DNA of 64,000 nucleotides from the NCBI GenBank assembly GCA_022925895.1, contig JAKSYS010000181.1:1-64000 (forward strand), in the 5' to 3' direction. The notes under the pieces were generated by a model. The model was given only the letters and a program-made list of their open reading frames with translations. It was not told the DNA's origin and did no database searches. Shown here in pieces: positions 4,640-23,583 of this stretch. Source of the stretch: Fragilaria crotonensis. Lineage: Eukaryota > Bacillariophyta > Fragilariophyceae > Fragilariales > Fragilariaceae. The number at the start of each line of letters is the position of its first letter. Positions within the stretch are counted from its first letter, which is position 1. The position numbers were made by a program, and so were the translations under genes.

Positions 4640-6674
4640 GTGCTCACCGCGTTGACCCTGATTGGGATCGCTCTTGCCCTATCAGGTGTAATCCTCAGGT
4701 CGGTTTGAGTGAAGTCCGAGACATGGCTGACAGTCAAAGCAAGGTCGGTGCGCAGTCGGCACCCACTCCCGTCCCATCAACACGGCGCCTAATTCCACCG
4801 CCTCGTCGGAAACTCTGGACGAAATTGTCGCTCGAGTTTTCAGATGCGGTATTCCTGATGGACAAAATGGATTTGCTGTCAAAGCCGACGACGGTACGCA
4901 GATTGGTTTCGATGCAGACCTATGCCGCGCGGTCGCAGCTGCCATGTTTGGAACATCTGATGGAAAAGTCGAATTCACCCCACTCTTATCCTCGGGTGAT
5001 CGTTGGACGTTTTGCAAAACAAATCAATCGACGTCATGGCACGCGTCTCGACAATTACCATGGAGCGCGATGTTCATGAACCATCGGTCGGTGCAGGATT
5101 CGAATTCACAATGCCATACCTGTACAACGGTGTCGGCTTTGGGGCCGTCAACCCTACTTGGACTGCGTTGAACAACGTAATTTTACAGGAGAGTGTTCTA
5201 CCGTGCTCATATGTGTTAGTCAGGGGACAACTCATGTTGAAATCGTTGGTGACTGGGGCCCCGAGTGCAAATGTGTTACCAGGAATCAGCAAATGCACTG
5301 TACACAAACTTTATAGAAGGAAGCTGCAATGTCATCACCGAAGAACAAACAGGGATATCCGCAACTGTTCTAGAACTAAAGGGATACACTGAAAATGACT
5401 ATGTTGTCGGAACTACGCAGTTTTCGAAAGAACCGTTGGCTGTCGTGACTCGCGAGGGCGACGCGTTCTGGAGCGACTTTGTGTATTGGGTTGTGGAGTC
5501 TCTTTTCAGTGCAGAGGAACGTGACATTGAACAGGCTAACGCAAATGAGTTTCCTGAAACTTCAAACTTTGGCGATGCCTATACAAGAATGTACCAACAT
5601 GCAATAGCCCAGGTTGGAAACTACGGTGAAATGTACGAGCGTCATTTGCAAAAGATTGTGCCTCGATCGACCTTGAATACTATCAATAATGGCACTTCTG
5701 GGCTTATGTACTCGTTTCCATTCGGGTCTGTCCTGACAGTTGGTAAAGGTCCAGTGCCGGGTGGCACGCTTGAAGCCATTCGACAGCGGGGTCACTTGAA
5801 ATGCGGAATCGCAATTACTGGCAGTTTTGGAGATTTCGACAAGTCGACTCGCTCCTGGAGCGGCTTTGATGTCGACTATTGTCGTGCGCTAGCGGCTGCT
5901 ATTTTTAATGGCGTTGACACGCACGTAGTCTATACCGTCCTTCCAGCAACAGCTCGATTCACAGCGCTCGCCTCAGGTCTGGTAGACTGTTTGTCACGTA
6001 CCACCACTGCTACGCAACAACGCGATCGTGCCGAACCAACAACTGGCGAAGGATTCTCCTTTGCGCCAGTCAGTTTTTATGATGGCTTGTCCTTCGCCGG
6101 CATTCCGCCTTACGGTGCGTGCGCGGATAAGTTGGACTCGACTTCGTCAACTTGTAAAGGATTGAAGATTTGCATGCAAGATGGAACCACCTCAATAACA
6201 CGAGTTCGTGAGCTGTTTCCAGAGTCCATTGTTGTTCCAAAGATCTCAAGTTCTGAAGCTTTTGCCGCCCTGGGAACAGAGTGCAACGCAATCGGCAGTG
6301 ATTCCACTGATGTTGCTGCACTCGCTGGCAACAGTTCTCGATACGAACTTGGTGCCAACCGCTACTCGAAGGAACCTCTTGCGCTGGTGACGAGAGAAGA
6401 CGACCCTCAGTGGACCAACTTTGTTCGTTGGGTTGTCCATGCAACAATCTATGCCGAAGAAAAATATATTACCCGAGTCACGGCGGATGCAATGCCGAAA
6501 TGCGATTTATTTGGGACGGTTCTGCGCAACATGTTCGTCGATGCCATCAATGCTGTGGGTAACTACGGGGAAATCTATGCGCGCAATACTGAATCGTTGA
6601 TGGCAAGGGAAGGAGGAATGAATTCCCTTAACCGAAATCCAACTGGACCTCAGCAGTATCCCGGGGTATTCTAA
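4640..6674 (+). CDS. Tandem bacterial-type amino-acid-binding protein, membrane anchored, 5' half frame-broken
   Basis: Two copies of a family 3 solute-binding domain (AapJ-like, Pfam SBP_bac_3 type) lie in series. Copy 1 (about 4815-5760) reads ETLDEIVARVFRCGIPDG, then GFDADLCRAVAAAMFG, but changes frame near 5010 and again before 5300. Copy 2 (about 5761-6674) is open throughout: GGTLEAIRQRGHLKCGI, then SGFDVDYCRALAAAIF, then KEPLALVTREDDPQWTNFV and AVGNYGEIYARN. In bacteria these proteins bind amino acids in the periplasm for ABC importers; here no transporter genes are near. Just upstream (4640-4705) one frame encodes a hydrophobic helix, VLTALTLIGIALALSGVIL, which could anchor the protein. 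The true start is unresolved. Either a pseudogene in its first half or a victim of sequence indels. Confidence 0.7.
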
Positions 6675-7058
6675 GATTGGGCGGCTTACAACCATTCATG
6701 TTTCTGAATGGGGCTGGTTAGCTCGAACGTAAAAAAGCTTAAGTGTTCATAGAACGAGTGACGCTGTCGGAATAGCACGTCCAGATCCTTTCTGACTACT
6801 GTAGCCTCTAGCCTGGCAGACGCAATGCTTCCAAGGTCAACCGAAGCATTGCTAATCTAGAAAAGCCTTCCTCTGTGTCTGACCTGTTCCGTTGAGATGT
6901 GATATTTGATATTTGTGATCATTCCGAGACTTTTGGGCATGGTACAGTCCAGTACAAGTAGACCAATTTCAAATATATTCTATACTCCCGCACGGTACAC
7001 GGTACTGTACAGATCAGGAGATGATAGATGATACTGCTTGTAGACGGGGGCGAATAGA
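6675..7058. other. Intergenic, outer flank of the composite element
   Basis: No coding signal. The stretch from about 6945 to 7020 is rich in GTAC-containing motifs. Weak similarity between 7027-7058 and the reverse complement of 19632-19660 suggests that the terminal inverted repeat of the neighbouring element may extend outward beyond its perfect core. Confidence 0.4.
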
Positions 7059-7090
7059 TCCGATTAGGTTTCACCAATTTGACGTCAGCA
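7059..7090 (+). repeat. Left terminal inverted repeat core
   Basis: Thirty-two bases identical to the reverse complement of 19600-19631. It begins TCCGATTAGG and contains the palindrome GACGTC. The flanking bases 7058 and 7091 differ from their counterparts. Confidence 0.85.
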
Positions 7091-7449
7091 CCCACGTCAC
7101 AGTAATAAACGACAGTCAGTCCTCCTGTAGAAGATTTTGAAGACATCGGAAATTTGAATGGCTGACAAAACACGGAATCTTTGTTGTTGACTCTGTTGGC
7201 GCTTTTCCTAACGCGCATGTCAACCTTTGTCATGCCAGGAAGATAACTGCTACTTATCTCCTTTCTATCAGTGATTCATGTGTTTCCTTGTTTGAATCAC
7301 TGAACTTACACTACTTTGTACTCGAGTACATCAACGACAGTACTTTGTACTCAATAACAACAGGGGGTTGCAAATCTCCTTGAAGGTACACTCCTTCTTC
7401 TTAATCGCCACCAACATGAACTATTTTTCAAATGAATTTCATTTTCAAA

Positions 7450-8390
7450 CAGTCTCGATGGACAAGTAACAGTGTGTCAGTCCGATGACGACCCTTTGGT
7501 GTACGAAATTTGAATCTGCAAATAGTCTCTTGGACAAGTAACAGTGTTTCAGTTTCGATGTCGACTATTTGGTACGAATTTCGATCTTCAAATAGTCACG
7601 AATGAACAAGTAACAGTTTTTCAATATTGAACTAATTATTTGCTGATCAAAATTGATCTTCAAATAGTCCTTGAATACAAGTAACAGTTTCTTCTTAACA
7701 AGACGACTATTTTCTGTACGAATTTCGATCTTCAAATAGTCTCGAATGGACAAGTAACAGTGTGTCAGTATGATGACGACTATTTGTGTACGAATTTCGA
7801 TCTTCAAATAGTCACGAATGAACAAGTAACAGTATGCCAGTAAGAAGACGACTATTTGGTGTACGAATTTCGATCTTCAAATAGTCACGAATGAACAAGT
7901 AACAGTATGTCAGTACGATGCGACTATTTGGTGTACAAATTTCGATCTTCAAATAGTCGCGAATGGACAAGTAACAGTATGCCAGTAGAAGACGACTGGT
8001 TTGGAATTTCGATCTTCAAATAGTCACGAATGAACAAGTAACAGTATGTCAGTAAGAAGACGACTATTTGGTGTACAAATTTCGATCTTCAAATAGTCGC
8101 GAATGGACAAGTAACAGTATGACAGTAAGAAGACGACTATTTGGTGTACGAATTTCGATCTTCAAATAGTCACGAATGAACAAGTAACAGTATGACAGTA
8201 CGATGACGACTATATGGTGTACGATTTCGATCTTCAAATAGTCACGAATGAACAAGTAACACTATGACAGTACGATGACGACTATTTGGTGTACGAATTT
8301 TGTTCTTCAAATAGTCACGAATGAACAAGTAACACTATGACAGTAAGAAGACGACTATTTGGTGTACAAATTTTGACCTTCAAAATAGGC
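7450..8390 (+). repeat. Array A: tandem 73-bp repeat, about 13 copies
   Basis: Consensus unit of 73 bp. Each unit holds the inverted arms GACTATTTG and CAAATAGTC around a 19-bp core, followed by a 36-bp spacer containing ACAAGTAACAGTATG. Copies here are more diverged than in array B, most of all at the left edge (7450-7700). The array begins just past the stop of the GNAT/DUF6824 ORF, which ends at 8423 on the - strand. Since 73 is not a multiple of 3, the apparent peptides in this stretch are artefacts. Confidence 0.9.
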
Positions 8391-8422
8391 TACTACATAC
8401 AGCATGTACGACTACGATGAAC

Positions 8423-11400
8423 TCATTTCTTGCATTCTTCATCCGAAGTACTGTAATTGCCGTCCCGAATTAATGTTTGCTTCCAAACACTTTGTCTATT
8501 GAAACACACGTTGCACCACCAAGTGTTTTCGAGCTTTCTCTTTTCATTGCAACACATGGAACATACATGCTTCTTACATTTCCGACACGAGTGCTTTGAA
8601 GGCTTATTGCATTCAATACAAGCATCATCCTCGTCACCAGCTTTCTTACTTCCTGTCATCCGCTCTTTTGAAGGCTTATTGCATTCAATGCCAGCATCAT
8701 TGTCGTCACCAGCTTTCCTCTTTCCCGTCACCGTACTTTGTTTCCCAAAGTACACTGATTTCCTTAGACGATCCCGAACCTCTTTCCTTACTTTTTCTGT
8801 GTTGACACCTTTCCAAACGTTTTCCTCTTTATTGACAAAGATGTAACCTTTTTTCCGCATCTCCTCTAGCACTTCACCTGCAATATTGTCCTTAGCGCTT
8901 TCTGTTCGACTTTCAAACGTGGCATCTGCAGCTCTTCGGATTATCCGACGGAAAGCCATGTTTGGTGGATGTCCCTTTGGTTCATCGCGTTTACGTACTA
9001 CAATACCATTTGGCGGTAGAGATGTACTTTCAAATGGACCTGGTCCGGCCTCCAATTCATTTATTGACGGCGTCATGCCCTCCTTCTTTTCGTTACACAC
9101 GTTTCATTCGCGATCTAATATACGCCATTCCACCATCGTATGTTTTTTCCTTCCACCTTTTTTTCTGTCATCTCGAGGAAACGAAATCCCTCCTTTTTAG
9201 AGTTGTGTAAATGGTACGCTGCACCTCATATTTTTCTGCCTGATTAGCTGCTGACAAGTGCATTTTCTTGAAGTCCAATGTGCGATCAAGGTACGGAATG
9301 CATTTGCGGTGCCCCTTCCCACACAGTACATCCTTTTTCCAGGTTTGGCGATTATCGAAACACTTTCATTTTCCTTTTCAAAATTATCGCGTATAAACTT
9401 CAACGCATTTTCGACAAATGGCAATGGAGACTTCTCGTGTGAAAGAGCAAGGATTTGCCAACACAGATTCTTCTTCTCATCTTCTGATGCAGCATATTCA
9501 AGTCCTTCTTTAAACTTGAAATAAATGTAGCAATATGCTGTATAGACAATGGCACAAATTCACTTCCTGCGAGCGCCGTGGTCGTATGTGCTCCATCAGG
9601 CATCTTTTCGGTGTCTTGAATCTTTTCTGGTGATGTATGATCTTGTTCCTGTACCTGCTTGCTCTGCTTCACTTTCGTGCTGGCGACTTCGTCAACGATG
9701 GATCATCCTGCTTTCGCTGGCCTAGACCACCCGACTGCTCTTCACCACTATCCGTCTTCCCTTTTTCTTTGTTTGTCGAGGCTTTCGCGAAGTCTTTCGC
9801 AACCGCTTCGCTACATCATCATTATTCATCTGGCACAAATCTGTTTCCCTGCCAAGCAACACTCTTTCTTTCGACAAAGGTTGCCACTGCAATATCTTGG
9901 CTAAATCAGGAAACGCATGTCGTGGTCGGGCATCGTTAGTTTCCAACGAAAGCGACCGTTCTATCCCCTTGCTGGGACGAAGATATTTTTGTACTCATGA
10001 GCTTCTTCTCGAACCGACCCAAAGTTGCTGCTTGCTATTCTGTCAATCAGTTGAAACAAGCTCACGTACACGTCATGCAAATAGTGAGCAAACGTGTTGA
10101 TGTGGGAATGTTCCTGCCCATGCCCTTGACATTGTCATTCCTGTCAAAAGTGATGTCACCTTTCACATTCCCACTCGTGTCGAATGTGACGTCGTGCACC
10201 ATGACACAAAAATCGCGGATGAAAATCAATGATTTTAAACCACTTTGCGCCACATCCTTTGACGTTTCCTGAATTAGAATGTAATCTGGCGGTAAACTCA
10301 ACGGTCGGAAGCGCCCTTCTCGATGTCACATGTCTCATTGTTCTTGTCAGTGACGACACAACCAAAATTAACGCTTTGCCGTGTGAAACCGACGTAAAAC
10401 GAATGCATGTTGAAAACCATGGTGCAACAACCTTGTCTTTCCATGGTGAGCCTTTCCTTTTCTTTTTGGTTTCGTGCTTTTGCATTTGGATCATTCTCAG
10501 GACTGAGTATGAAGTGCACCAATTTGAGGAAGAACCGGCAAATTGGCGGTGGGTCAGAACGGCGACGTTTTCCAGTTGGATCAAACAAAAATATCCACAT
10601 TTTGTATCGTTATCATTGTTCCCAGTTTTTCCACAATTCACCGCTACGAAAACAGTCCATGAACAATCTTCATCCTCTTGTGCAGGAATGACAATAAACG
10701 GCTTCGTGAGGAGATCCTTGTGTTGTATAATGAACTCCACCACCAGAATTGTTGCCTCCATAAACCTCTTTTGGTCAATCTCGTAATGAAAGATGTGGTT
10801 TACAAACTGTCTTCTCTCTATCGGTTTTGTTTTTAGGTCGGAACCGAAGATGCAACGTTCCGTCCTTCAATGAAGGATGTAAAAGGCTCTCCATTGTTGA
10901 CACCTCAGTCATGATCTTACAAGGAATGATGGTCAGGGTCGACCAAATTTCAGCTTTACAATACCGCTGCAGCCATCCCAGAGCAATGTCCACAAAGTCT
11001 GGAGAAAGAGCGTCACCTTTGCGCGTAAGGCAACGATCTATCCAAGTCAGACGAGCACTTGGACCTTGGAATAGGTATTTTTCCATTATCGAGTTCTTCG
11101 GATGGAAGGCCTTGTCATCCCAAAATTCACCCGAGTAACAATCATAAGTTGGTGTACAAAATGTTGCCTCTTCGTATGTTAAGTTTCCGGGAAGAAGGCA
11201 TACACGGATGGACAATCAATGGTGTTGTCATTGGGATTGTTGAACAACCTTTTCAATACTATCTGGTTTCTGGATTCTTGTGGGAAGGCAAAATATTCAC
11301 GTGTAAGGCAAATCGTCAACCACTTCAAATCGTTGCTGAATCCGAGATAGTCCTTGAGTGGACTATCATCAACCTCATTGACAAAACAGTCTCTCAAAAC

Positions 11401-11898
11401 TTTAGGAAATGCTTCAGTCCCTTCAGCCATTTCGGCAAAGTTGCGTCTTGAATAATAACCCCATGCCACTTTGTTCGCGGTCGGATTTGCTTTCAAATAA
11501 ACATTTACTTCATCAACACCCACCCTACACCTTACAACTTGATGCATAATCGAAAGCAAAAAAGTTGCCATTCCGTTGGCCTGATAGTCAACCTTTGTTG
11601 CCAAAAAAAGAACCAAAACAGCGTTCTCTCGTTGTACAAACGTTATAGCGCATATAGCAGTGGGTTTCTCCTTTTCCCATATACTAAGTGTCTCGCCCTT
11701 ACCAAGGCAAGATGACAGTGACTTCCGATCTGAATGGTCGTCGAATATAACATGATACAATTCATAAACAGTATCACTCGCATTGTATTCATCTTCTCTT
11801 CCAACAAAGTGAAGAATACGATATTCCTGTAGGAACGTTGGTAATTGATCACGTGGAATGCGGTGGTGCCATTTCATCATCTCAATCATCGTCTTCAT
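8423..11898 (-). CDS. Multidomain accessory ORF: GNAT-like, C48-like, DUF6824-like, cysteine cluster (frame-broken)
   Basis: Read from 11898 downwards through several frames. (a) 11898-11179: GNAT-like fold, with LFLATKVDYQANGMATFLL as the acetyl-CoA loop (Q-x-x-G-x-A) and NKVAWGYYSRRNF after it. (b) About 11200-10060: C48-like region with SPDFVDIALGWLQRYCK, then KPFIVIPAQEDEDCSWTVF, then IFLFDPTG and QSVNFGC. The usual His before Trp is Ser. (c) About 9950-9200: charged, no domain recognised. (d) 9100-8423: GHPPNMAFRRIIRRAA, then a W-x-x-V block and KEVRDRLRKS, which match the pattern of stramenopile DUF6824. The tail is a Cys cluster (CIECNKPSKHSCRKCKKHVC, then CCNEKRK and WWCNVCF). Breaks near 11190, 10770, 10600, 10300 and 9400 may be indel errors, decay or introns. 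It could also be two genes. No function is established. Confidence 0.55.
8598..8741 (-). repeat. 72-bp internal tandem duplication in the cysteine-cluster region
   Basis: GAAGGCTTATTGCATTCAA occurs at 8598 and 8670, 72 bp apart, and the similarity continues on both sides. In the protein it duplicates a 24-residue block containing IECNKPSK. The first protein copy has GIECN where the second has CIECN, so one cysteine of the putative metal site is lost or was never present. Confidence 0.75.
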
Positions 11899-12072
11899 TA
11901 CTGGGGGTTCACATCCGTCAAATGGATCATCGTCATGCGTACTGGTTGCCTTCGGCGCGCTCTTTGTCTTCGGGGCATACTGAGGAGATGAGTTGTTTAA
12001 GACTTGACGACCTTCAACATATACAAATCAGGTGCAGATGCTCACAGTGTCGATTGCACTAATTGTGTACAG

Positions 12073-13150
12073 ATTCTGATCTTCAAATAGTCTTCTAAGA
12101 AGTAACCCGAACGATCTTCAAATAGTCACCACGTACAATTTCGATCTTCAAATAGTCTCGAATGGACAAGTAACAGTATGACGGTATGAAGACGACTATT
12201 TGGTGTACGAATTTCGATCTTCAAATAGTCACGAATGGACAAGTAACAGTATGACAGTACGATGACGACTATTTGGTGTACGAATTTCGATCTTCAAATA
12301 GTCACGAATGGACAAGTAACAGTATGTCAGTACGATGACGACTATTTGGTGTACGATTTCGATCTTCAAATAGTCACGAATGGACAAGTAACAGTATGTC
12401 AGTACGATGACGACTATTTGGTGTACGAATTTCGATCTTCAAATAGTCACGAATGGACAAGTAACAGTATGTCAGTACGATGACGACTATTTGTACGAAT
12501 TTCGATCTTCAAATAGTCACGAATGGACAAGTAACAGTATGACAGTACGATGACGACTATTTGGTGTACGAATTTTGATCTTCAAATAGTCACGAATGGA
12601 CAAGTAACAGTATGACAGTACGATGACGACTATTTGGTGTACGAATTTTGATCTTCAAATAGTCACGAATGGACAAGTAACAGTATGACAGTACGAAGAC
12701 GACTATTTGGTGTACGAATTTCGATCTTCAAATAGTCACGAATGGACAAGTAACAGTATGACAGTACGATGACGACTATTTGGTGTACGAATTTCGATCT
12801 TCAAATAGTCACGAATGGACAAGTAACAGTATGACAGTACGATGACGACTATTTGGTGTACGAATTTCGATCTTCAAATAGTCACGAATGGACAAGTAAC
12901 AGTATGACAGTACGATGACGACTATTTGGTGTACGAATTTGATCTTCAAATAGTCACGAATGGACAAGTAACAGTATGACAGTACGATGACGACTATTTG
13001 GTGTCGAATTTCGATCTTCAAATAGTCACGAATGGACAAGTAACAGTATGACAGTACGAATGACGACTATTTGGTGTACGAATTTCGATCTTCAAATAGT
13101 CACGAATGGACAAGTAACAGTATGACAGTACGAAGACGACTATTTTTGTA
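12073..13150 (+). repeat. Array B: tandem 73-bp repeat, about 15 copies, same orientation as array A
   Basis: Highly uniform units of 73 bp with the same arms (GACTATTTG and CAAATAGTC) and spacer as array A; most copies differ by one or two bases. It lies directly upstream of the GNAT/DUF6824 ORF, so it would include that gene's promoter region. The higher uniformity than array A suggests recent amplification or homogenisation. Confidence 0.92.
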
Positions 13151-13319
13151 CGCATTATTTTGTTTCCAACAATTGCTGTCTTACAAAAAGTATGACACAC
13201 AAAACACATCTTTCTCTTGACAATGCAATGTGCGATGTCAAACAGTGATAATAATGATTGAAAAGTAACATATTCCGCCTCAGTGCCGCAAAGCAATCCA
13301 TTTGCTCAGCAAATGCAAA

Positions 13320-14240
13320 GTAATTTGTCACTTCAGCATCCAATCGGTATTTATCATACCGTCCTGGTGCAATCCATGTTGCGAAACGATCGTCAAGGAA
13401 TAGAAAAAATCGTCATCGGTATGAGAATTCAAACAATAGTTCTTGCCACAGGCAAGACTACCAGATTGTTCGATTGCATACCTATTATACTTGGCCATTC
13501 GGCAACCATTGGGCACTCGCAGTCTCGAAGATCATTCCCTGAATGAACCCTTGCCACTTCATGACAGAGTTCTCCTCATTAAGTCACGGATTTGTGTCTT
13601 GCCCATTCACTTAATGTTTTTGGCCAAGACTCGGTTATGCCAGGTGATCCACGGTTTGGCTTTAACCCAACAGTGGTGTATTTGCCAATATCTTCAGCAA
13701 CAGGTAGTCGTTTATTCCACGCACTTCTGCTTGGATTCAGTAACTCAAGTGCATAAAGTGCCTCGATGGTTTGGTTAACCCTTGTAAGTTTTTGACAACA
13801 TACGGACGTGGGACTAGCAAGACTTTTATTCCATTCGGTAACATCAAACGGGCACCAGACAATATTGGCAATGACTTTGAGAACGTTTGATTGCAACAGC
13901 ATGTGCGTATCACCTGGCGTTGCGAAGTCTCGCTGAGTTTTCCATAATGCTCCACTATAGAATAAAGGTTTACAACTGTTCTAACAGTGTTGCCCAGTGT
14001 ATGTCAGTGACGATGAAACTGCATCAAACTATCTAGCCTTTTCTTCTTCAAATACATGCTCTTTGCATAAACACTCTTGGCTTGCCATTTTGTGCGCCAT
14101 CTTGATGCTTCCTGAGTGGGATGCTAGACTTTTCCCTGATTTATATAGTATGTTGAAAAAACCTGCTTCCAGTCTTGCCAATGTCATCACTTGTGGTATC
14201 ATTCAGCCAAACTGCACCTCATCATGGTTTTTCGAAGTCA
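13320..14240 (-). CDS. Unknown ORF between arrays B and C (interrupted)
   Basis: No family recognised. The - strand keeps a protein-like composition across several frames. From 14240 it reads FNILYKSGKSLASHSGSIKM, then MASQECLCKEHVFEEEKAR. The longest clean stretch is 13902-13579, which includes VIANIVWCPFDVTEWNKSL and NQTIEALYALELLNPSRSAW; a last piece is at 13516-13328. Frame changes occur near 14020, 13960 and 13560. It may be a separate accessory gene or a remnant of a longer protein that array B now splits. No catalytic motif is visible. Confidence 0.35.
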
Positions 14241-14590
14241 CCGGTTGAACTGCTGTTACTGTGCCCCTTTAGTCATGCGATAATGTGACCTGTTTTGACG
14301 TACTCATGATGGTTTCCAAGTTGTTACATTTGCATTCCACAACCGTATTTCATCATGGTTTTTCAAGTCAAGGCTGGAACTGCTGTTACTGTGCCCGAGT
14401 CACAGATAACAGTGACTGTTTTGACGCACTCATGATGGTGTTACATCTGCATTCCAAACCGCATTCTCATCATGGCTTTTCGAACGTCAAGGTTGGAACT
14501 GCTGTTACCGTGCCTCCGAGTCACAGATACCAAGTGACCTGTTTTGACGTACTCATGATGGTTTCCAAGTTGTTTCTTCCGTTTGATAAC
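14216..14590. repeat. Three imperfect copies of a roughly 120-130 bp repeat
   Basis: ATCATGG(T/C)TTTTC recurs at 14221, 14352 and 14469, each followed by GGAACTGCTGTTACTGTGCC-like sequence (with variants) and then a GACTGTTTTGACG-like block. Spacing is 131 and 117 bp. It is unrelated in sequence to the 73-bp arrays and lies at the upstream edge of the unknown ORF. Confidence 0.8.
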
Positions 14591-14718
14591 CATTCGCAAT
14601 AGCCGCGGCGAGCAAGGCAATCGAACGATGAAAATTGTGATACAGTTTATACTCTTCTGCACGTCGCACGTGTCAGAAGTACGCCAGTGCTCTGGGTCGA
14701 CATACTCAGAATACTGTT

Positions 14719-15897
14719 GAAGATTGAAATTAAGATCAATTTAATCACCAAATAGTCGCCATTGTACTGTACTGGTGATGGTATCTCGTACTGTGACGAC
14801 TATTTGAAGATCGAATTCGATCACCAAATAGTCCATTGTACTGTACTGGTGATATCAGATGTGACGACTATTTGAAGATCGATTTCGATCACCAAATAGT
14901 CACCATTGTACTGTACTGGTGATACTCGTACTGTGACGACTATTTGAAGATCGAATTTCGATCACCAAATAGTCGCCATTGTACTGTACTGGTGATACTC
15001 GTACTGTGACGACTATTTGAAGATCGAATTTCGATCACCAAATAGTCACCATTGTACTGTACTGGTGATATCAGTACTGTGACGACTATTTGAAGATCGA
15101 ATTTCGATCACCAAATAGTCGCCATTGTACTGTACTGGTGATACTCGTACTGTGACGACTATTTGAAGATCGAATTTCGATCACCAAATAGTCGCCATTG
15201 TACTGTACTGGTGATACTGTACTGTGACGACTATTTGAAGATCGAATTTCGATCACCAAATAGTCGCCATTGTACTGTACTGGTGATACTCAGACTGATG
15301 ACTATTTGAAGATCGAATTTCGATCACCAAATAGTCGCCATTGTACTGTACTGGTGATACTGTACTGTGATGACTATTTGAAGATCGAATTTCGATCACC
15401 AAATAGTCGCCATTGTACTGTACTGGTGATACTGTACTGTGACGACTATTTGAAGATCGAATTTCGATCACCAAATAGTCGCCATTGTACTGTACTGGTG
15501 TTACTCAGACTGTGACGACTATTTGAAGATCGAATTTCGATCACCAAATAGTCGCCATTGTACTGTACTGGTGATACTCGTACTGTGACGACTATTTGAA
15601 GATCGAATTTCGATCACCAAATAGTCGCCATTGTACTGTACTGGTGATACTCGTACTGTGACGACTATTTGAAGATCGAATTTCGATCACCAAATAGTCG
15701 CCATTGTACTGTACTGGTGATACTCGTACTGTGACGACTATTTGAAGATCGAATTTCGGTCACCAAATAGTCGCCATTGTACTGTACTGGTGTTACTCGT
15801 ACTGAGACGACTATTTGAAGATCGAATTTCGATCACCAAATAGTGGCCATTGTACTGTACTAGTTGAAGATCGAATTTCGATCACCAAATAGTCCCC
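14719..15897 (-). repeat. Array C: tandem 73-bp repeat, about 16 copies, inverted relative to A and B
   Basis: The unit is again 73 bp. The first 40 bp are the reverse complement of the array A/B core with a few changes: A/B have GGTG on the left and GATCTTC on the right, and C has GAAGATC on the left and CACC on the right. The other 33 bp differ completely and contain CATTGTACTGTACTGGTGAT. The arms GACTATTTG and CAAATAGTC are kept, and the inner part GATCGAATTTCGATC is nearly palindromic. The array ends about 70 bp from the stop of the MULE transposase. Confidence 0.92.
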
Positions 15898-15968
15898 ATC
15901 CTAGTCATGATGTCGAACAAGAACGAAAGTCTAAGTCAACATTGTTATTAATTCTAAATGTACTACTT

Positions 15969-18900
15969 TTAAAAACTCCATGATGAGACATATGTTTTGC
16001 ACACCTTGCCAACAGGACACCCCGAAACTAGGGACCCTTTGGGTGGTGGTTTCTCAGAAGCCATGTTGGCTTTCTCGGTGAAGATAATCTTGTCGAGTGC
16101 CTCCTCAACAAGAAGACCTCTCTCTTGTGGGCTTTTTGAGGCATCAACAAGACTAACTAGTTCCTTTGCTCTTGGCATAATGCTGTCGTACGCATTGTAA
16201 CGTTCCAATTCGGATACGTCTTCATGGTGAAGAGCACGTGATCCAAAATCAATGCAGTCAGTTTCTAAACTCGTAGATTCCATGAGGATGTCGTCATTGT
16301 CGTCAAGATGAGTATTCGTGTGCTCAGTTTCATGACCAGCGTCGATGAGTGGTTCCTCAGGCAAGTGGATCTCTTGCGACATTGATACGGAACAGTATTT
16401 TTGGCATTCTTCAGGGCAATCTCAACCTCATCCCTGGTGTAGTTTACGACACTGTCCAGTTTTGAGGGTTTTTGGAAAAGGGAGTCAATGGTACTTTCAG
16501 TGGCATTTCTGAATTGCTCATTTGAATTCTTCCCACACTTGTAGACACGATGGAATGGAGAGAAAGTATGATCGTCATTCTTTGGAATAAAGTTTGGGCC
16601 TTTGCAATCATTCTCACGTATTGATTCCAGCTTCTGCTTTATCTCTTTCTCAGTTAGTGAGCAATCACTCTCCTTCTTCATTGAGAAATAAATATATGAT
16701 TTCCACCAACGTACTGAAATGTCGTGGTGACTGATGTTTGGATTGCTTGCATAATACTTCTTCACATGCATCATGTGTGGGCAGATGACACCATTGCATT
16801 CGTAGTAGTTGCAGTCACACATCAGACAAACCCTGTTGTCAAAGTCTTGTGAGGTGACAGTGTACACTCTGTGGAAGCATGGAATCAAAGAATGGACATC
16901 ACGGTCAACTGACCGAACAACAAGCCATTTGAAAGGGCTTGCTCTCCAAGAAGCATAGCTCTCGCATTGATCAAGAGCGAATTTCAACATGAACTCTGCA
17001 GGAAGGGTGACATCATTGACGGTGGGAGAGTTACTCCAGGTTGCTCTTCCAAACAGGGCACTAGCCATATATCGTTGGTATAGGTCAAATTTGTTGGAAT
17101 CGGTGTCAACTTGAATTTTGACAGATTTGTCAACACCGTGCTGTGGAAGCACACAGGAAGGACCAGCTTTGATAGCATTATTTGTACCTTCGTGCCCAGA
17201 ATTTGTGTTGGTCTCAAGTGTCTCACCCTTCCTCAGATAAAAGCAATAACTCTGCTCTTGTGGAATTATGTAATTGCGGATAAAGTGCAATATCTTTTCT
17301 CCACCGTCCTCCCAAAAATTGCCTTAATAGTGTCTGATTTCAAGTACATATGTAAAAGGGCGTAACTTCTTTGATGTTGACGATTCTTTTAGAAAAATGG
17401 TATCACAGATAACACACAGAATAAACATGTAGGTGTACTCACATTTCGTACTCGTCTTGGAAAAGTATCCTCGGCGCATCCAGCTGTAGATCCAGGTTTT
17501 TATTACTCTTACCTGCCTCTTGGCGGCATCATCCTTGCCTCTCCGATAACCCAAGCCTTTACAATTTCGTCGCCAGCCTTGATCAACAAGGTGCCACCCA
17601 CATCGAGTACGTACTGCATTGACAAAATGTGTGGAGATGGCATAGTCAACTTGTGTCATTTCTTGGGAATCACCGTCAGTCATGATAAGTTTCACAGCAT
17701 GTAGTGATTGTGCACCAAGAAGAACAGGAATGGCTTCTTGGAATAGCCAACGGAAGAACCAAGATCGTTCATTCGGGGCAATGCACCTAACAACCACAGT
17801 CACCTTTCCATTTGAATCTTTCACAGAGAGTGTCAGCAATGGTCTGCTTTCATTGTTCGTCTCATGAGTGCCGTCAACGCATACAACTTCAGGAAAAGCG
17901 TGGAACAGGCGCCTGCCTTCTGGTAAAACCCAACAACAGGCAATGAGTATATCCTGGTCTTCCCTTGCACCAACCGCAAGTCTGCTTTCCAAAGCATATT
18001 TCTTAAAAGTGGATGTCTCTGCCACCTCCAGAGGTACTGGCTTCTCGTGAATAGGTGAAGTGTCATCAGTGTCATCATCAGTTGGGATAACAGAAAGGCT
18101 GGTTAGTTCACCTGATAAATCATGAGGAATGGCTTCAGTACGTGCAGCCTTTACACTGTTACCACGTAGTTCTTTGATTTGCCATGATGATACAGACAGA
18201 CATACGAGGCACCACTTTTTTGTAAGTAACTCAACATATTCTCACAGGGTGAAGACTCCGATGCTGTTGTGGTAGCATGAACATTTGGGGAAGCCATGAA
18301 GTCTTTTGCCATTTTTGTAAATCCTTGCACATATGCCATCTGACCACGAGTAAAAATCTGACCCGTACGGGTTTTAGTAAACAGAGCCGCTTGGGCAGGC
18401 TGGATGTTGGCAACACTCATTGCAGCAACAGTTTCCAGGGTTGTAATGTCAAGAAAGCGTTTACGATTCCTTATTTCATTGGAAAGAAGAGGAGGATGGC
18501 CAGTGTGCTGATTGTTTCCAATTCCGCAAACAAGGAAAAGCTATTATGGTCAATTCGGAGTGTGAATTTGACACGACAAGTGCAGGAGTTACCACGTAGA
18601 GTTGAATTGCGACGTTTCAATCCTATGCCAGAACTCTTGCACCCACGGGCATTCTTCTTATCACCAGTGTAGGTGGTAACACGATAAGAATCGGTTCCAG
18701 TACTTTGGTTCAGTGTGCAGGACATTCCTCCTTCTTCTGATGAATACTGGCGGAAATTACTGCATTTCAATACGCGTTGGTCAGTCAGTAGTACATCTGT
18801 GACATTGGTTGGGGAACGCAAACCATAACCATTGGAAACAAGGGCACAATTCCCAACAGATTTGGCAGCTTGGAGTAAGTCAGTGATAAGACTATGGCCT

Positions 18901-19132
18901 CCTGAATCCTTTCAAATCCACCATTGATGGGATAAAGAGATGGACTGAACCGAATAATATGCTTGGAACCCTTGTACATGGAGGTAGTGTACTGAAAGAG
19001 GTCGTACTGTTTCCAATGATGCATTGAAATCATCGGTTGCATGACAAAATGACCTTTGAAAGGCAAAGAAGCAGTCCATGACATAGCCTTGAGAGCAGAT
19101 AGAGTCTGGTCCACAGCATGGGGATCCTGCAT
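15969..19132 (-). CDS. MULE/FAR1-like transposase of the composite element
   Basis: From 19132 downwards. An N-terminal part leads to a zinc-binding region (NSCTCRVKFTLRIDHNSFSL, then QHTGHP), a C..C..H..H pattern like FAR1/MULE proteins. The DDE core is at about 18025-17450: VVCVDGTHETNNESRPLL gives the first Asp, APNERSWFFRWLF a conserved block, KLIMTDGD the second Asp, and TRCGWHLVDQ the C..H. A SWIM finger at about 16840-16770 reads CLMCDCNYYECNGVICPHMM (CxC..CxH). The C-terminus ends at 15969. Near 17440 a GTGAGTAC donor and an acceptor near 17330 suggest a real intron of about 110-140 bp; shifts near 18820, 18500 and 16385 look like single-base indels. The family is secure; whether the protein is intact is not. 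Confidence 0.8.
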
Positions 19133-19224
19133 CAATGGTACTTCTTGTTGTGGATGATCCTAAAGAGACCGAAACATGGGGTTGGCAACAAATTAATCGG
19201 TAGGTGGTTGCTATAGTAACGCAA

Positions 19225-19335
19225 GCAAAATGACAACAGATAGAGAGCAAACAAGAGCGAAAACAGAACAAGGACAACAAGAGAAACAAAAGCAGCAAGG
19301 AGAGCAAGAACAACAAGAGAAACAATAATGACAGG
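19225..19335. repeat. Purine-rich low-complexity tract
   Basis: Degenerate runs of ACAAGAG and AACAAG-type words on the + strand. Translations of its complement give an artefactual leucine/valine-rich peptide. It lies between the transposase start and the right terminal repeat. Confidence 0.6.
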
Positions 19336-19599
19336 GAGACAAAGTGCCATACCATCGTGGTTGTAAAATATCAAAATGATGAGTTTTGTGCGAGTAAACT
19401 CAAATCCACTACTGGTACCATGTTTTATACACATCTAGACACGATCATTTTTATTTCTATTCAAACAAATGTGGAGCAGATTTATGTTCCTTATCTAGAA
19501 CGTAGTTTTGCACAAGAGTTGGTTTGAAAAGAGGGCGGTGATAAAGTCAAAGAGAAAGATTCCGTGCAAGTTAAATTCCACAACTAAAGTGCTAAAAAA

Positions 19600-19631
19600 T
19601 GCTGACGTCAAATTGGTGAAACCTAATCGGA
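19600..19631 (-). repeat. Right terminal inverted repeat core
   Basis: Exact reverse complement of 7059-7090 over 32 bases. No 9-bp direct repeat is seen immediately outside the two cores (7050-7058 against 19632-19640), so either the repeat extends further out or the target-site duplication has decayed. Confidence 0.85.
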
Positions 19632-20192
19632 CCCAAGTAGTAGTATGACCTATGAACTATGAACAACGTACACCGTACTACCGGTACAGTTGTACTCCAG
19701 TAGTACAGTATTATTTTACCAGTTACTGCAGCCAAACCTCGTAAATAGTAGTGGTACTCGTACTGTACTCCATTAATGAGAAACGAGATCACTCCTCTAC
19801 GCTCATCGTACTCGGCAAGTGTAGCCACGTACGCATATGACCATATGACCTATGGCGACCTATGAATATGACCAAAGAACAACACGTAGTATGTGTAACG
19901 GACACCAAAATAGTGTTCCTAATGCTTCCACGTTTACTGTCACTGTAAAGCGTCACGACTGCCCGTTCAAAGGAGAATGTCCCATGAACTCTTCGGGCAC
20001 GATCCGGTACCTGGCCTTCAGCCTGGGCGCTTTTGGCTCGTTTCCGAGCAGGACTTTCCAAGTTTTGGTTCATTCGTACTTGCGTACACCTTTCATGCTG
20101 CATCGTTTGTTAAGCTCAAATAGATTTATTGCTGGTTCTTGAGCGTTCTTCTCTCCCTTTCACTCTTCTCGTTCTGCCCGAAAACAGTAAAA
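19632..20192. other. Intergenic upstream of the copper ATPase
   Basis: Rich in GTAC words between 19660 and 19770 and in repeated TATGACC/CATATGACC words near 19830-19870. No coding signal. Contains the promoter of the ATPase gene, but I see no defined element. Confidence 0.4.
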
Positions 20193-23100
20193 ATGGCACC
20201 TGATCAAGAGGTTGTACATCTTCGAGTCGAAGGCATGATGTGCCAACGAAATTGTGGTACGAATCAGCTCTTCATGTCCTAAATCGCTTTTTGTTCATCA
20301 TGCAACGGCTATGATTCTCTAATAATAATCTTTTTTTCCTTTTCATATCAATTTCAACTTGACAGGCACAACGGTTCAGAATGCTCTTCGCGCCATACCC
20401 GGTGTGGAGAATGTGGAAGTGTCCTATGAACACAAGTACGCGTCGATGACAGTTTCGAACAACACGGTTGATTTACCACAATCCTGGACTGAAATGGCGA
20501 TAGAGTGTATCGATGCCGTCGGATTTGATGCCTTTCCACTAGAAGATATTGACAGCATCCGACACACAGTGCATCTGCGAGTTGAGGGTATGATGTGCCA
20601 GAAAAACTGCGCCAAGACGGTGGAAGGAGCGCTGAACGGATTGTTGGGGGTTGTGGCAGCGGAAGCGTCATTTTCCAGATCGTACGCTACTGTGACGGCC
20701 ACTTTAGGTGATTATGGTTCTGGATCCTTATTGGCCAGAATTAAAAACTTGGAAGATGCTGCCATCGATGCTGTCGAATGTGTAGGGTTTGATGCGTCGT
20801 TGTTATCCGAAGAAGCGCTCGTAGACTTGGAAACACAGCACTATGGGGGCGACAACGTTACCAATTCACTTTCCAGCGACGACGACGACTTCTTTCTCGA
20901 TAAACTTTCGTTAGACGGAAAGACAGCCTCCCTTTCCGTCAAGGGGATGTCTTGTGCAGTTTGCGTTGGCCGTGTCGTTGCAATGCTGAAACAAGTCCCT
21001 GGTGTCTGCGACGCCACTGTTGCCCTAACAACCCATCGCGCGCAAATTCAAATCGACTCGGGGGACGTTCATGCTATTGCCGAGGCATGTGCCAATGCAG
21101 TGACAAAGGGTGGTTATAGTTGCTCGGTTCTGCATGCCGGCGCGGGCGGTCGGGGAATCACGCTGGTTGAGAATGCCGCACAGCTTGAAGAATCTCGCCA
21201 CCACGAATTGAAAACATGGCGCTCGCTTTTGATTACATCTACATGCTTATCAGTGCCGCTCGTCATCTTGCACCATCGTGAATTTCTGTGTTTACACAAT
21301 CTTGGTGTGCCTTATTGTCAAGAAACAATTCAGCTCGTGCTTGCAACGTTGGTACAATACATTGTCGGTAGGCGTTATTACATTGCTGCCTGGAACGGAT
21401 GGGTCAATGGTCGTTTTCTTGGAATGGACTTTCTTGTTGTTCTGGGTACAACTGCAGCATACATATTTTCGGCAGTTACCTTTTTTAAACACCTCGTGAA
21501 CCATGTCGATAATGGCATGAAGGAAGCGGCGTTCGAAACTGGAGGTATGTTGTTTACGTTCGTAACTTTGGGCAAGTATTTGGAGGCATATGCCAAGGGC
21601 AAGACAGCAAGTGCACTGCAGATGTTGATGGAGCTGCAACCGAATGTGGCGTTGAAGGTGATGAACATGGATGTTCCGTTTGATGGAGCTGCTGACATTT
21701 CGTCACTCCAAACGCAATCAATTTCTGCAAATGATGTTCGAGTTGGTGACTACTTGTACGTACTTCCTGGGAGTCGTATCGCAGCTGACGGAGTTTTGGT
21801 GGCCACATCAGGCAAAGCTCCATTTGCGTTTGTCGACGAGTCGGCTCTCTCGGGGGAGCCGTTTCCAGTTGCCAAACCCGTCGGAGGAAATGTCTTTGGT
21901 GCAACTGTTAATCAGCTAGCGACTTTGGTCGTGCGCGTTACAGCATCTGGCAACACTACAGTACTTGCTAAGATCGTGCATCTCATGGAACAGGCACAAT
22001 CCCAAAAGGCGCCCATCGAAGCCCAAGCTGACAAAGTGGCTTGCATTTTTGCGCCCACAGTCATGGCATTATCTCTCTGCACTTTTCTTGGGTGGGTTCT
22101 CCTTTACGACCACCCCGATCGTTGGTATTTGGGGATCATGAGTGCTATTTCTGTTATTGTTGTGGCGTGTCCTTGTGCATTGGGCCTGGCGACCCCTACG
22201 GCTGTTATGGTGGGTACAGGTGTTGGAGCCAAACATGGACTACTCATCAAAGGAGGCGCTGTCCTTGAATCTGCCCACGGTGTGGACACTGTAATTTTTG
22301 ATAAGACGGGCACTTTGACGACATCCAAAGCTGTCGTGCGAGACAATGTGCAGTTTCTTGGCGATGCGGACGAAATTGTTATCAAGAAGCCGTCCGTGGT
22401 CAAAGCCGACCAAGTTTGCTTGTGGCTTGCCGCATGTGCTGAGAAGCAAAGTGAACACCCTTTGGCCAAGGCCATTGTGAATGCTGCTCAAAGTGCATGG
22501 GGCGCAGATGTTACATGTTCTTCCGAAGGTACGCAAGTTGACGAGTTCCTCGTCATTCCAGGCTCGGGTGTCGAATGCGTTGTTCGGGGCCCAAACTTTG
22601 GGGCATGGCGAGTGCGCGTGGGCAATAAGGAGTGGACCAACGAGGCTTTGATCGATACGCACGACGATGATACGGATTGCAATGGTGAAATTGAGATTTG
22701 TGAAATCAGGAGGAAAGGGAGAATTGGTGTCTTTGTGAGCGTATTGCCTGAGTCCCAGTTTCTGGCGAAGTGCGATGGAGATGGCACGCCATATCGACGT
22801 CGTATCGCTGGTGTGATTGGTATTGCTGATCCTATCCAAGCAGAGGCAAAGTCTACCGTGGCTGCGCTCCAGCTAATGGGAGTGGATGTGTGGTTGTGTA
22901 CCGGCGACGATGAGGTTACTGCACTTGCCGTTGCAAGAGACGTCGGTATTCCGAACGAAAACGTCTGCGCTGGAGTGAAACCAGAGGGGAAGGCTGATCT
23001 GGTCTCTCGGCTTCAAAAGAAGGACAGATTTAGTTCACTCCGACGCGACAAGCGAGCCCGCCGTCACCAACAAGGTAGAGTGGGTTTTGTTGGTGATGGC

Positions 23101-23583
23101 ATCAATGATGCAATTGCCTTGGCGCGATCTGATGTCGGGATTGCTATCGGAGCGGGAACTGAGGTTGCTGTGGAAGCTGCGGATATCGTGCTTGTTAAAT
23201 CCTCGCTTCACGATGTCGTTGTGGCACTCCATCTTTCAAGAGTGGTGTTTCGAAGGATTCGGCTGAACTTCATCTGGGCCCTTGCGTACAATCTGATGGC
23301 ACTTCCTTTTGCTGCAGGGGTCTTCTTTGCGTTTACAAATTTCCGACTTCCTCCTCAATTTGCTGGCTTGATGATGGCATTCAGCTCAGTTAGTGTTGTG
23401 ACCAGCAGTCTTCTACTTCGCACGTACTCGAAACCAAGGATTCTTCCAGATGGCACTCTCCAGCGCAGTGGCTGCTGTTTCAGAAGGGACTACGCCAACG
23501 TAGTGCAGTCGATACGGCGGGGTCCTGCATATTCTGATCTCCGCACGGCATCCAGTGATGACGAGACCCTTGAACTTGTGTAG
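20193..23583 (+). CDS. Cu+-transporting P1B-type ATPase (CopA/ATP7/HMA5 type), 2 exons
   Basis: Pumps copper(I) across a membrane at the cost of ATP. Exon 1 is 20193-20256, the intron 20257-20365 (GT..AG, 109 bp), exon 2 20366-23583; splicing restores the first metal-binding domain. Three HMA domains come first. Two carry a five-residue CxxxC site (GMMCQRNCG and GMMCQKNCA) and the third the usual CxxC (GMSCAVCVG). Then the membrane helices, the actuator loop (DESALSGEPFPVAK), the ion-channel motif CPCALGLATPT, the phosphorylation site DKTGTLT, SEHPLAKAI, and the hinge GDGINDAIALA. The last helices have YN and M..SS, the Cu+ signature. About 1094 residues, normal for the family. Intact. Likely at the Golgi or plasma membrane by analogy. 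Confidence 0.95.
20257..20365 (+). other. Intron of the copper ATPase gene
   Basis: GTACGAATCAG at the donor and TTGACAG at the acceptor. It splits the Gly codon right after the CxxxC site of the first metal-binding domain and contains an in-frame stop, so it must be removed. Confidence 0.85.

Follow-up and report, generated by a model that had tools for sequence, protein, structure and literature searches.

The window analysed here is a 64,000-base stretch of DNA from Fragilaria crotonensis, a diatom of the class Fragilariophyceae (G000:C93:1-64000; genome of 62.1 Mb in 881 contigs). Positions 7056-19634 likely represent one full-length copy of a young family of DNA transposons that encode a Mutator-like element (MULE) transposase of the DDE type. 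The copy encloses three arrays of palindromic repeats and the broken genes for the transposase and two further proteins, here gene 2 and gene 3 (Table 1). Its terminal inverted repeat (TIR) is exact over 32 bp, as an earlier reading of the same letters (the original prediction) had reported, and reaches 35 bp if two mismatches are admitted. That prediction ended the element at the outer edges of the repeat; the TIR positions are right, but the true ends lie three bases further out, because RGA and CCC flank the 32-bp TIR in 30 of 30 fetched copies. RGA (A in 18, G in 12) marks the array-1 end and CCC the transposase end, with mixed composition beyond. Element ends are nearly always fixed and asymmetric, 5'-RGATCC...GGACCC-3', in a sample chosen from perfect or near-perfect TIR matches, a choice that favours the usual ends. 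The inner 12-bp inverted match that had also been pointed out is exact and carries little weight as a feature, because 3.2% of 500 Markov-shuffled pairs of 500-bp ends give one by chance.

Table 1. Features of the window copy, and sites at which an unoccupied copy of the target was read
Feature	Position	Strand	Remarks
Left outer constant trinucleotide AGA	7056..7058	+	RGA in 30/30 fetched copies
Left TIR, 32 bp exact	7059..7090	+	
Inner 12-bp match	7171..7182	+	partner at 19555-19566; chance possible
Array 1	7434..8384	+	units of 67-73 bp around a palindromic core; 10-12 cores in 12 long copies
Gene 2	8423..11940	-	about 1,220 aa in pieces; frame broken here
Array 2	12133..13156	+	orientation as array 1; 10-25 cores in 12 long copies
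Gene 3 (HxD...H...R protein)	13157..13902	-	broken remains; orientation opposite to that in the other 11 long copies
Array 3	14732..15861	-	inverted to arrays 1 and 2, with their palindromic core and another spacer; 6-19 cores in 12 long copies
MULE transposase	15969..19145	-	frame broken by small indels in window copy
Partner of inner 12-bp match	19555..19566	-	
Right TIR, 32 bp exact	19600..19631	-	
Right outer constant trinucleotide CCC	19632..19634	+	CCC in 30/30 fetched copies
Empty site C304			6 extra bases in empty copy at junction
Empty site C150a			6 extra
Empty site C416			6 extra in 8/9 copies; ninth 5 and -2
Empty site C342			6 extra, diverged copy; further gap of 7 six bases away
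Empty site C451			6 extra in 4/5 copies; fifth 4
Empty site MITE L091			6 extra in 3/3 copies
Empty site MITE L088			6 extra
Empty site C437b			7 extra in best copy, -1 elsewhere
Empty site C40			four copies: 7 (best; -1 elsewhere), 5, 6, 13/-6
Empty site C335			-2 in 2/2; repetitive low-complexity flank
Empty site C418			length change 0; GCTAT repeat common to both flanks
Empty site C6			no clean alignment, not interpretable

A young and dispersed family

A genome search with the TIR at up to three mismatches gave 180 places (91 forward and 89 reverse), and the reversed control gave 0 and 0. These include at least 38 convergent pairs spaced 2 kb or more, of which at least 12 measure 11.9-13.0 kb, 5 measure 3.9-9.6 kb and 21 measure 2.2-3.0 kb; 30 of the 38 were read, the window copy among them, with C504, C507, C560, C658, C761, C837, C851 and C869 left out. 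The long copies, at least 12 and dispersed, have common ends, the three arrays and the two main genes. Twelve of them are 99.3-100% identical in substitutions (blocks 8400-12050 and 15870-19634), the lowest values coming from comparisons with the window copy (C93) and with C878. Shorter copies are internal-deletion derivatives. Smaller still are miniature inverted-repeat transposable elements (MITEs): among 20 stretches fetched by the GGG end, 10 are two-ended MITEs of 157-165 bp, and in the other 10 a second end was not found within the stretch at three mismatches. The TIR thus bounds a real and very young transposon family in this freshwater diatom. The earlier proposals of recent activity and of movement as a single unit are borne out by the near identity of the long copies and by the 11 further paired copies of 11.9-13.0 kb elsewhere in the genome. 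The genome-wide TIR search, set beforehand as the refuting test, gave a divided answer: short derivatives and MITEs end in the same repeat, yet the genes and arrays of the window copy recur in the other long copies. As a side observation, at C484:14321-17992 a repeated flank and extra TIR copies lie beside a short copy, where nested or tandem insertions are possible.

The three genes

The prediction of one MULE-type transposase holds, with profile matches to PF10551 (E = 5.9e-14) and PF21056 (E = 3.2e-14). The DDE domain shows the motifs CVDGTHE, TDGD and CGWH, and the third catalytic residue is placed by eye at GHEGTN. In an alignment of P0003 and eleven further relatives (57-85% identical to P0003), all 12 agree in the columns of the first two D and of CxWH, and they stop before the third residue. 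A SWIM-like CDC-x9-CPH (CDC-NYYECNGVI-CPH) was recognised by eye at 16265-17290 on the minus strand, with no Pfam SWIM match, and the N-terminal part, FAR1-like by eye, has no Pfam match either. An intron probably follows at about codon 570. In all, 56 relatives of the transposase were found (33-100% identity), mostly metagenomic and some from this genome, including P0011, which is F. crotonensis MHU86_9855.

Long open frames survive in single copies, namely 961 aa (C451, L034), 579 aa (C183, L030), 410 and 474 aa (C105, L024) and 491 aa (C175, L027). Given that the frames in C183 and C451 overlap, the open reading frames at 8.4-11.9 kb, two of which had been described as separate same-strand frames, are indeed present but are pieces of one gene 2 of about 1,220 codons. 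Block 15870-19634 (3.8 kb) of the long copies carries small indels at 47 positions, mostly of 1-2 bp, in homopolymers or short repeats and copy-specific; they are taken here as long-read assembly noise, real decay being the alternative. Because the assembly looks indel-prone, differences of one base at empty sites are unreliable, and broken frames may be common among the gene models for this genome.

Gene 2 consists of an N-terminal part with a weak GNAT-like match, a middle part and, at the C-terminus, two DUF6824 stretches (E = 9.9e-12) and a Cys-rich zinc finger, the last matching the FYVE type at E = 0.0084, below the Pfam cut-off. The GNAT reading comes from rimI alone (E = 0.071), with no Pfam match and no PDB support. 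Metagenomic relatives are P0002 (61%) and P0059 (52%). Ulp1-like genes, mentioned in passing in the original prediction as possible MULE cargo, gave no Pfam or PDB match, the candidate being part of gene 2; the idea, formed by eye, of an Ulp1 or C48 protease in the middle part was dropped, a very diverged domain being possible. A PDB fold search with one predicted model of gene 2 (predicted local distance difference test score, pLDDT, 39.9) returned nothing at E <= 0.001 and was not used. No paper on DUF6824 was found in the open-licence literature searched.

Gene 3 has an intact frame of 420 aa in C105, 55% identical to the protein of C388, and its HxD, H and R are invariant in two diverged copies. 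At the level of motif alone it looks like a 2-oxoglutarate/Fe(II) oxygenase. Pfam gives nothing, or Cupin_2 at E = 0.26, and PDB oxygenases appear at E = 0.6-2.3 among other weak matches; no phage records with gene 3 were found. Each of the 12 long copies has a homolog; eleven carry it on the other strand from the transposase, and the one in the window copy is inverted and broken. There the segment between arrays 2 and 3 (12133-15861) is inverted and about 85% identical in nucleotides to C105, and the other ten long copies are about 98-99% identical to C105 along most of that section. Recombination between the inverted arrays 2 and 3 would explain its orientation; at about 85% identity, the segment is also an older version.

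The palindromic arrays

The three related 73-bp arrays of the original prediction are present, but array 3 is inverted and good sharing is confined to the palindromic core. The 73-bp unit contains a 37-bp palindrome; between the consensus units of array 3 and of arrays 1 and 2, 34 of 37 core positions and 22 of 36 spacer positions are shared. Single-strand fold z-scores of the palindromes are -4.0, -6.7 and -3.4. The arrays separate and flank the genes, and they also occur close to an end of the element.

Diverged relatives keep the layout

Relative loci were read from the matches listed (the best 79 of 169 candidates for the transposase, 84 of 84 for gene 3), with single-gene loci outside the count. 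Among these matches, the transposase and gene 3 lie within 10 kb of each other at 12 loci outside the family (C169, C54, C786, C270, C57 twice, C376, C114, C388, C860, C12 and C497), on opposite strands in all 12. Gene 2 adjoins the transposase on the same strand at C388 and C860 (36-37% identity to P0002) and at C869 (partial match). Because relatives have the same gene order, the architecture is long-standing, and the description of the element as composite does not stand. Diverged relatives of gene 2 also occur with no transposase match close by (C312:45229-46743, C783:19768-21954, C592, C84, C258 and C20), and at C783, C84, C258 and C592 a relative of gene 3 lies nearby on the opposite strand.

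Between the relatives' genes, 2-kb stretches hold arrays of a 52-bp unit, with four units in L107 and four to five in L108, where at least two further units follow in the other orientation past gene 3. The palindrome of this unit, GGCGGCATT...AATGCCGCC, has the same layout as that of the 73-bp unit, GACTATTTG...CAAATAGTC, and stands beside the same genes. Similarity between the two was not detected; since 36% and 41% of shuffles reach their alignment scores, there is no sign of homology.

Ahead of the C860 transposase, L109 carries GATTAGAATGCAAGGAAATGACGTCA, the TIR of a second MITE family (L078-L082, L033, L034, L109), first met in the C451 flank and found at no fewer than 38 places, with outer hexamers GGATCC, GGTTTC or others. 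Its TIR and that of the main family have in common GATTAG and TGACGTCA, 12 bases apart. The C860 transposase locus may be the source of this second family.

Target sites: no duplication and missing bases

Cut-and-paste transposons as a rule leave a target-site duplication (TSD), and only a few groups, such as Spy, leave none. The duplication of 8-11 bp expected in the original prediction did not appear, with a clear TSD in 0 of 30 copies. For this test 30 copies of at least 2.2 kb were compared at six end offsets and lengths of 1-12 against 100 permutations; no exact repeat of five or more bases was found at the element ends at any of the six offsets, and identity was at the permuted level apart from small excesses weighed below.

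Empty sites were sought with the joined flanks of 40 insertions (30 copies and 10 MITEs), trinucleotides removed. The searches scored 40 candidate places each, of 394, 404, 77 and 93 first-look candidates, so that some empty copies may have been overlooked. Unoccupied paralogous copies across the junction were found for 12 insertions, and 30 empty copies were read by a uniform alignment. Relative to these, 6 target bases are missing at seven insertions, 7 at two and none at one, and two are unclear. At the junction of MITE L091, 22 of 40 listed places exceed the joined flanks by exactly 6 bases, 19 of them along all 200 bases and 3 in partial matches. The missing hexamers vary by site (CATGTA, GACATG, CATGCT, ACTATG, AGTATG and others) and seem CAT/ATG-rich.

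How the element may integrate, and what the arrays may do

The best reading, and one that can be held with fair though by no means complete assurance, is that of a diatom MULE lineage whose integration replaces the target site. The element's own transposase would move it, insertion cuts would fall about six bp apart, and the overhangs would be lost rather than filled in, leaving the target replaced and not duplicated. For the window copy itself, target loss is inferred from its siblings.

Several observations weigh against this reading. The window copy has no empty site among the scored places. The remaining 18 of the 40 listed L091 places range from +3 to +13; single copies deviate at C416 and C451, C342 has its second gap, and C437b, C40, C335, C418 and C6 depart from six or resist interpretation (Table 1), with C335 reading as 6 on the assumption that its occupied flank holds a short tandem duplication. 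The ends, too, are not wholly constant. In a count requiring an exact GATTAG... core and a base other than A before the hexamer (66 and 59 places match, 100 listed), the outer hexamers are GGGTCC at 48 ends, AGATCC at 28, GGATCC at 12 and others at 12; among the 10 two-ended MITEs, seven have AGA/CCC and three a different left trinucleotide. With the ends set outside the trinucleotides (offsets 3,3), exact 3-mers occur in 3 of 30 copies against a permuted mean of 0.6, with no match of four or more, and identity slightly exceeds the permuted maximum over 2 bases at offsets 2,3 (0.38 against 0.35) and over 3 bases at offsets 2,2 (0.36 against 0.34); unlike these small excesses, a genuine duplication should be visible in most copies. 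As to the genes, no single open frame spans the whole transposase or gene 2 in the long copies as assembled, and the assembly is indel-prone. The N-terminus of gene 2 and the whole of gene 3 have no significant hidden Markov model support, AlphaFold models of gene 2 pieces are low (pLDDT 32.5 and 39.9), and gene 3 is on the transposase strand in the window copy and in the derivative C130. Finally, MITEs without arrays have the same ends, so the arrays are dispensable for mobility.

The arrays are predicted binding sites for an element-encoded protein, the candidate being gene 2 with its DUF6824 stretches and zinc finger. Arrays and gene 2 might together form a sequence-specific system that possibly counters silencing, as VANDAL/VANC does. 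Taken by itself, this array hypothesis is tentative, possible rather than probable. The fuller proposition, in which exact six-base replacement by a diatom MULE lineage is combined with a three-part anti-silencing module (a DUF6824/zinc-finger protein, a dioxygenase-like protein and co-diverging two-orientation palindrome arrays), must be regarded as doubtful as a whole.

Two other accounts of the arrays deserve attention. They might be selfish satellites, or sources of hairpin RNA, without a protein partner; core numbers that vary among nearly identical copies, from 10 to 25 in array 2 and from 6 to 19 in array 3, are what such repeats would show, as are the fold z-scores of -3.4 to -6.7. Yet two diverged relatives have the same palindrome layout in the same place with unrelated sequence, and between arrays 1/2 and array 3 the core is kept better than the spacer. 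Selfish repeats have a real chance of being the answer, if well short of an even one. Alternatively, transposition rather than anti-silencing might require the arrays, as binding sites of the transposase or as fold-back structures. All 18 of the shorter copies read (2.2-9.6 kb) lose genes yet keep array cores, as this would predict; the 10 two-ended MITEs, however, have TIRs and no space for arrays, and arrays lie between and beside genes too. A role in transposition thus seems rather unlikely.

For the missing six bases, the alternative that survives best is a hidden 6-bp TSD that has been overwritten. On this account the core starts at GATTAG, the element brings its own outer hexamers (RGATCC / GGACCC) as tails pairing with a six-base gap on either side, and the element's version survives repair, so that both copies of the TSD would be replaced; Tn916-type recombination, with its coupling sequences, offers a comparison. 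It fits the length relation, L-6-core...core-6-R against L-6-R in most empty copies, and the outer hexamers are nearly direct repeats. At some ends unrelated hexamers (CCATAC, AAGCTA, ATATGC) adjoin an intact 27-bp core, and of five loci fetched from the sister MITE family, three combine a usual hexamer with a different one. For the odd-left-hexamer MITEs C108, C228 and C505, no empty copy was found among the listed places. Under random resolution roughly half of the ends should keep a target hexamer, whereas the usual hexamers stand at 88 of the 100 listed. An overwritten duplication is unlikely; geometrically it equals the model of overhang loss, and overhang loss is favoured.

An ordinary MULE whose 8-11 bp TSD has decayed or been lost by recombination would suit the transposase, such duplications being characteristic of MULEs in the excerpt of PMC6446971 used here. 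Nonetheless 0 of 30 copies show a TSD despite the 99.3-100% identity of the long copies, and the empty copies hold extra target bases rather than a word doubled in the occupied copy; decay is very improbable. That unrelated DNA was caught by chance between two MITEs, an idea prompted by short elements bounded by the same 32-bp TIR, can be dismissed as next to impossible, since the same genes and arrays are found inside eleven further pairs.

Beyond the ends of the window copy lie two neighbouring host frames, both characterised by eye. One at 5265-6674 (+), about 0.4 kb away, has stretches like periplasmic-binding proteins and glutamate receptors; the other, at 20359-23583 (+) and about 0.7 kb away, is a long copper-type P-type ATPase frame.

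Relation to known elements and implications

Lack of a TSD in diatom MULEs is already known: Table 1 of PMC6446971 gives 'No TSD and not indicated' for 'MULE-Diatoms' (group 37), with a TIR of 123-124 bp, one ORF and a SWIM motif. The present family resembles that group in its diatom host, MULE transposase and missing TSD, with the SWIM-like motif seen by eye. Points of difference are the TIR of 32-35 bp, the three genes that typical copies carry, the arrays, and the target loss measured here. Compared by description, a TIR of 32 bp (35 with two mismatches) against 123-124 bp keeps the element from being filed in group 37. It is also not a canonical MULE, but MULE-lineage by transposase, since the 8-11 bp TSD that the excerpt of PMC6446971 gives for MULEs otherwise was not found. 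Six-base loss itself is apparently unreported: no report of such a loss in a DNA transposon, or of this F. crotonensis family, was found in the open-licence literature searched (titles and abstract starts).

Other systems share single traits. In Arabidopsis VANDAL elements, whose TSDs are 9 bp or not indicated (PMC6446971 Table 1), a MULE is likewise joined by an additional protein gene, and its non-coding parts hold tandem arrays of a motif particular to the family. The motif bound by VANC lies in these non-coding repeats, which differ from one family to another (PMC5735166; PMC10398659). The VANC21 motif, YAGTATTAY, has 9 bases, and the available part of PMC5735166 does not use the word 'palindrome'; the motif here is, by contrast, a 37-39 bp palindrome in arrays of both orientations. 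Spy, of the PHIS superfamily, is also a cut-and-paste element with no TSD and inserts within AAATTT, but it belongs to another transposase superfamily, and a six-base target loss is unmentioned for it in the excerpt used (PMC4482050). TET/JBP dioxygenase genes with HxD and a downstream H occur in fungal transposons, according to the portion of PMC12730594 at hand, and gene 3 is similar at motif level alone; those elements differ in their fungal hosts, other transposases and TSDs. The fold-back MULEs Tm1 and Rehavkus (PMC3169594; PMC6446971) are likewise MULE-related with tandem repeats, and Tm1 has asymmetric short motifs outside its inverted repeat. In the excerpt of PMC3169594, however, the TIRs of Tm1 contain its repeats, and TSDs of 8-10 bp, mostly 9, are present in 45 of 53 complete elements.

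If true, regular six-base loss together with fixed ends in a MULE lineage would imply that strands are transferred or repaired in a different geometry, and target replacement can be tested on the many nearly identical copies. More broadly, palindrome arrays that keep their layout and place in relatives while their sequence is unrelated would provide a case outside plants for testing whether sequence-specific self-recognition evolves in transposons by tandem repeats.

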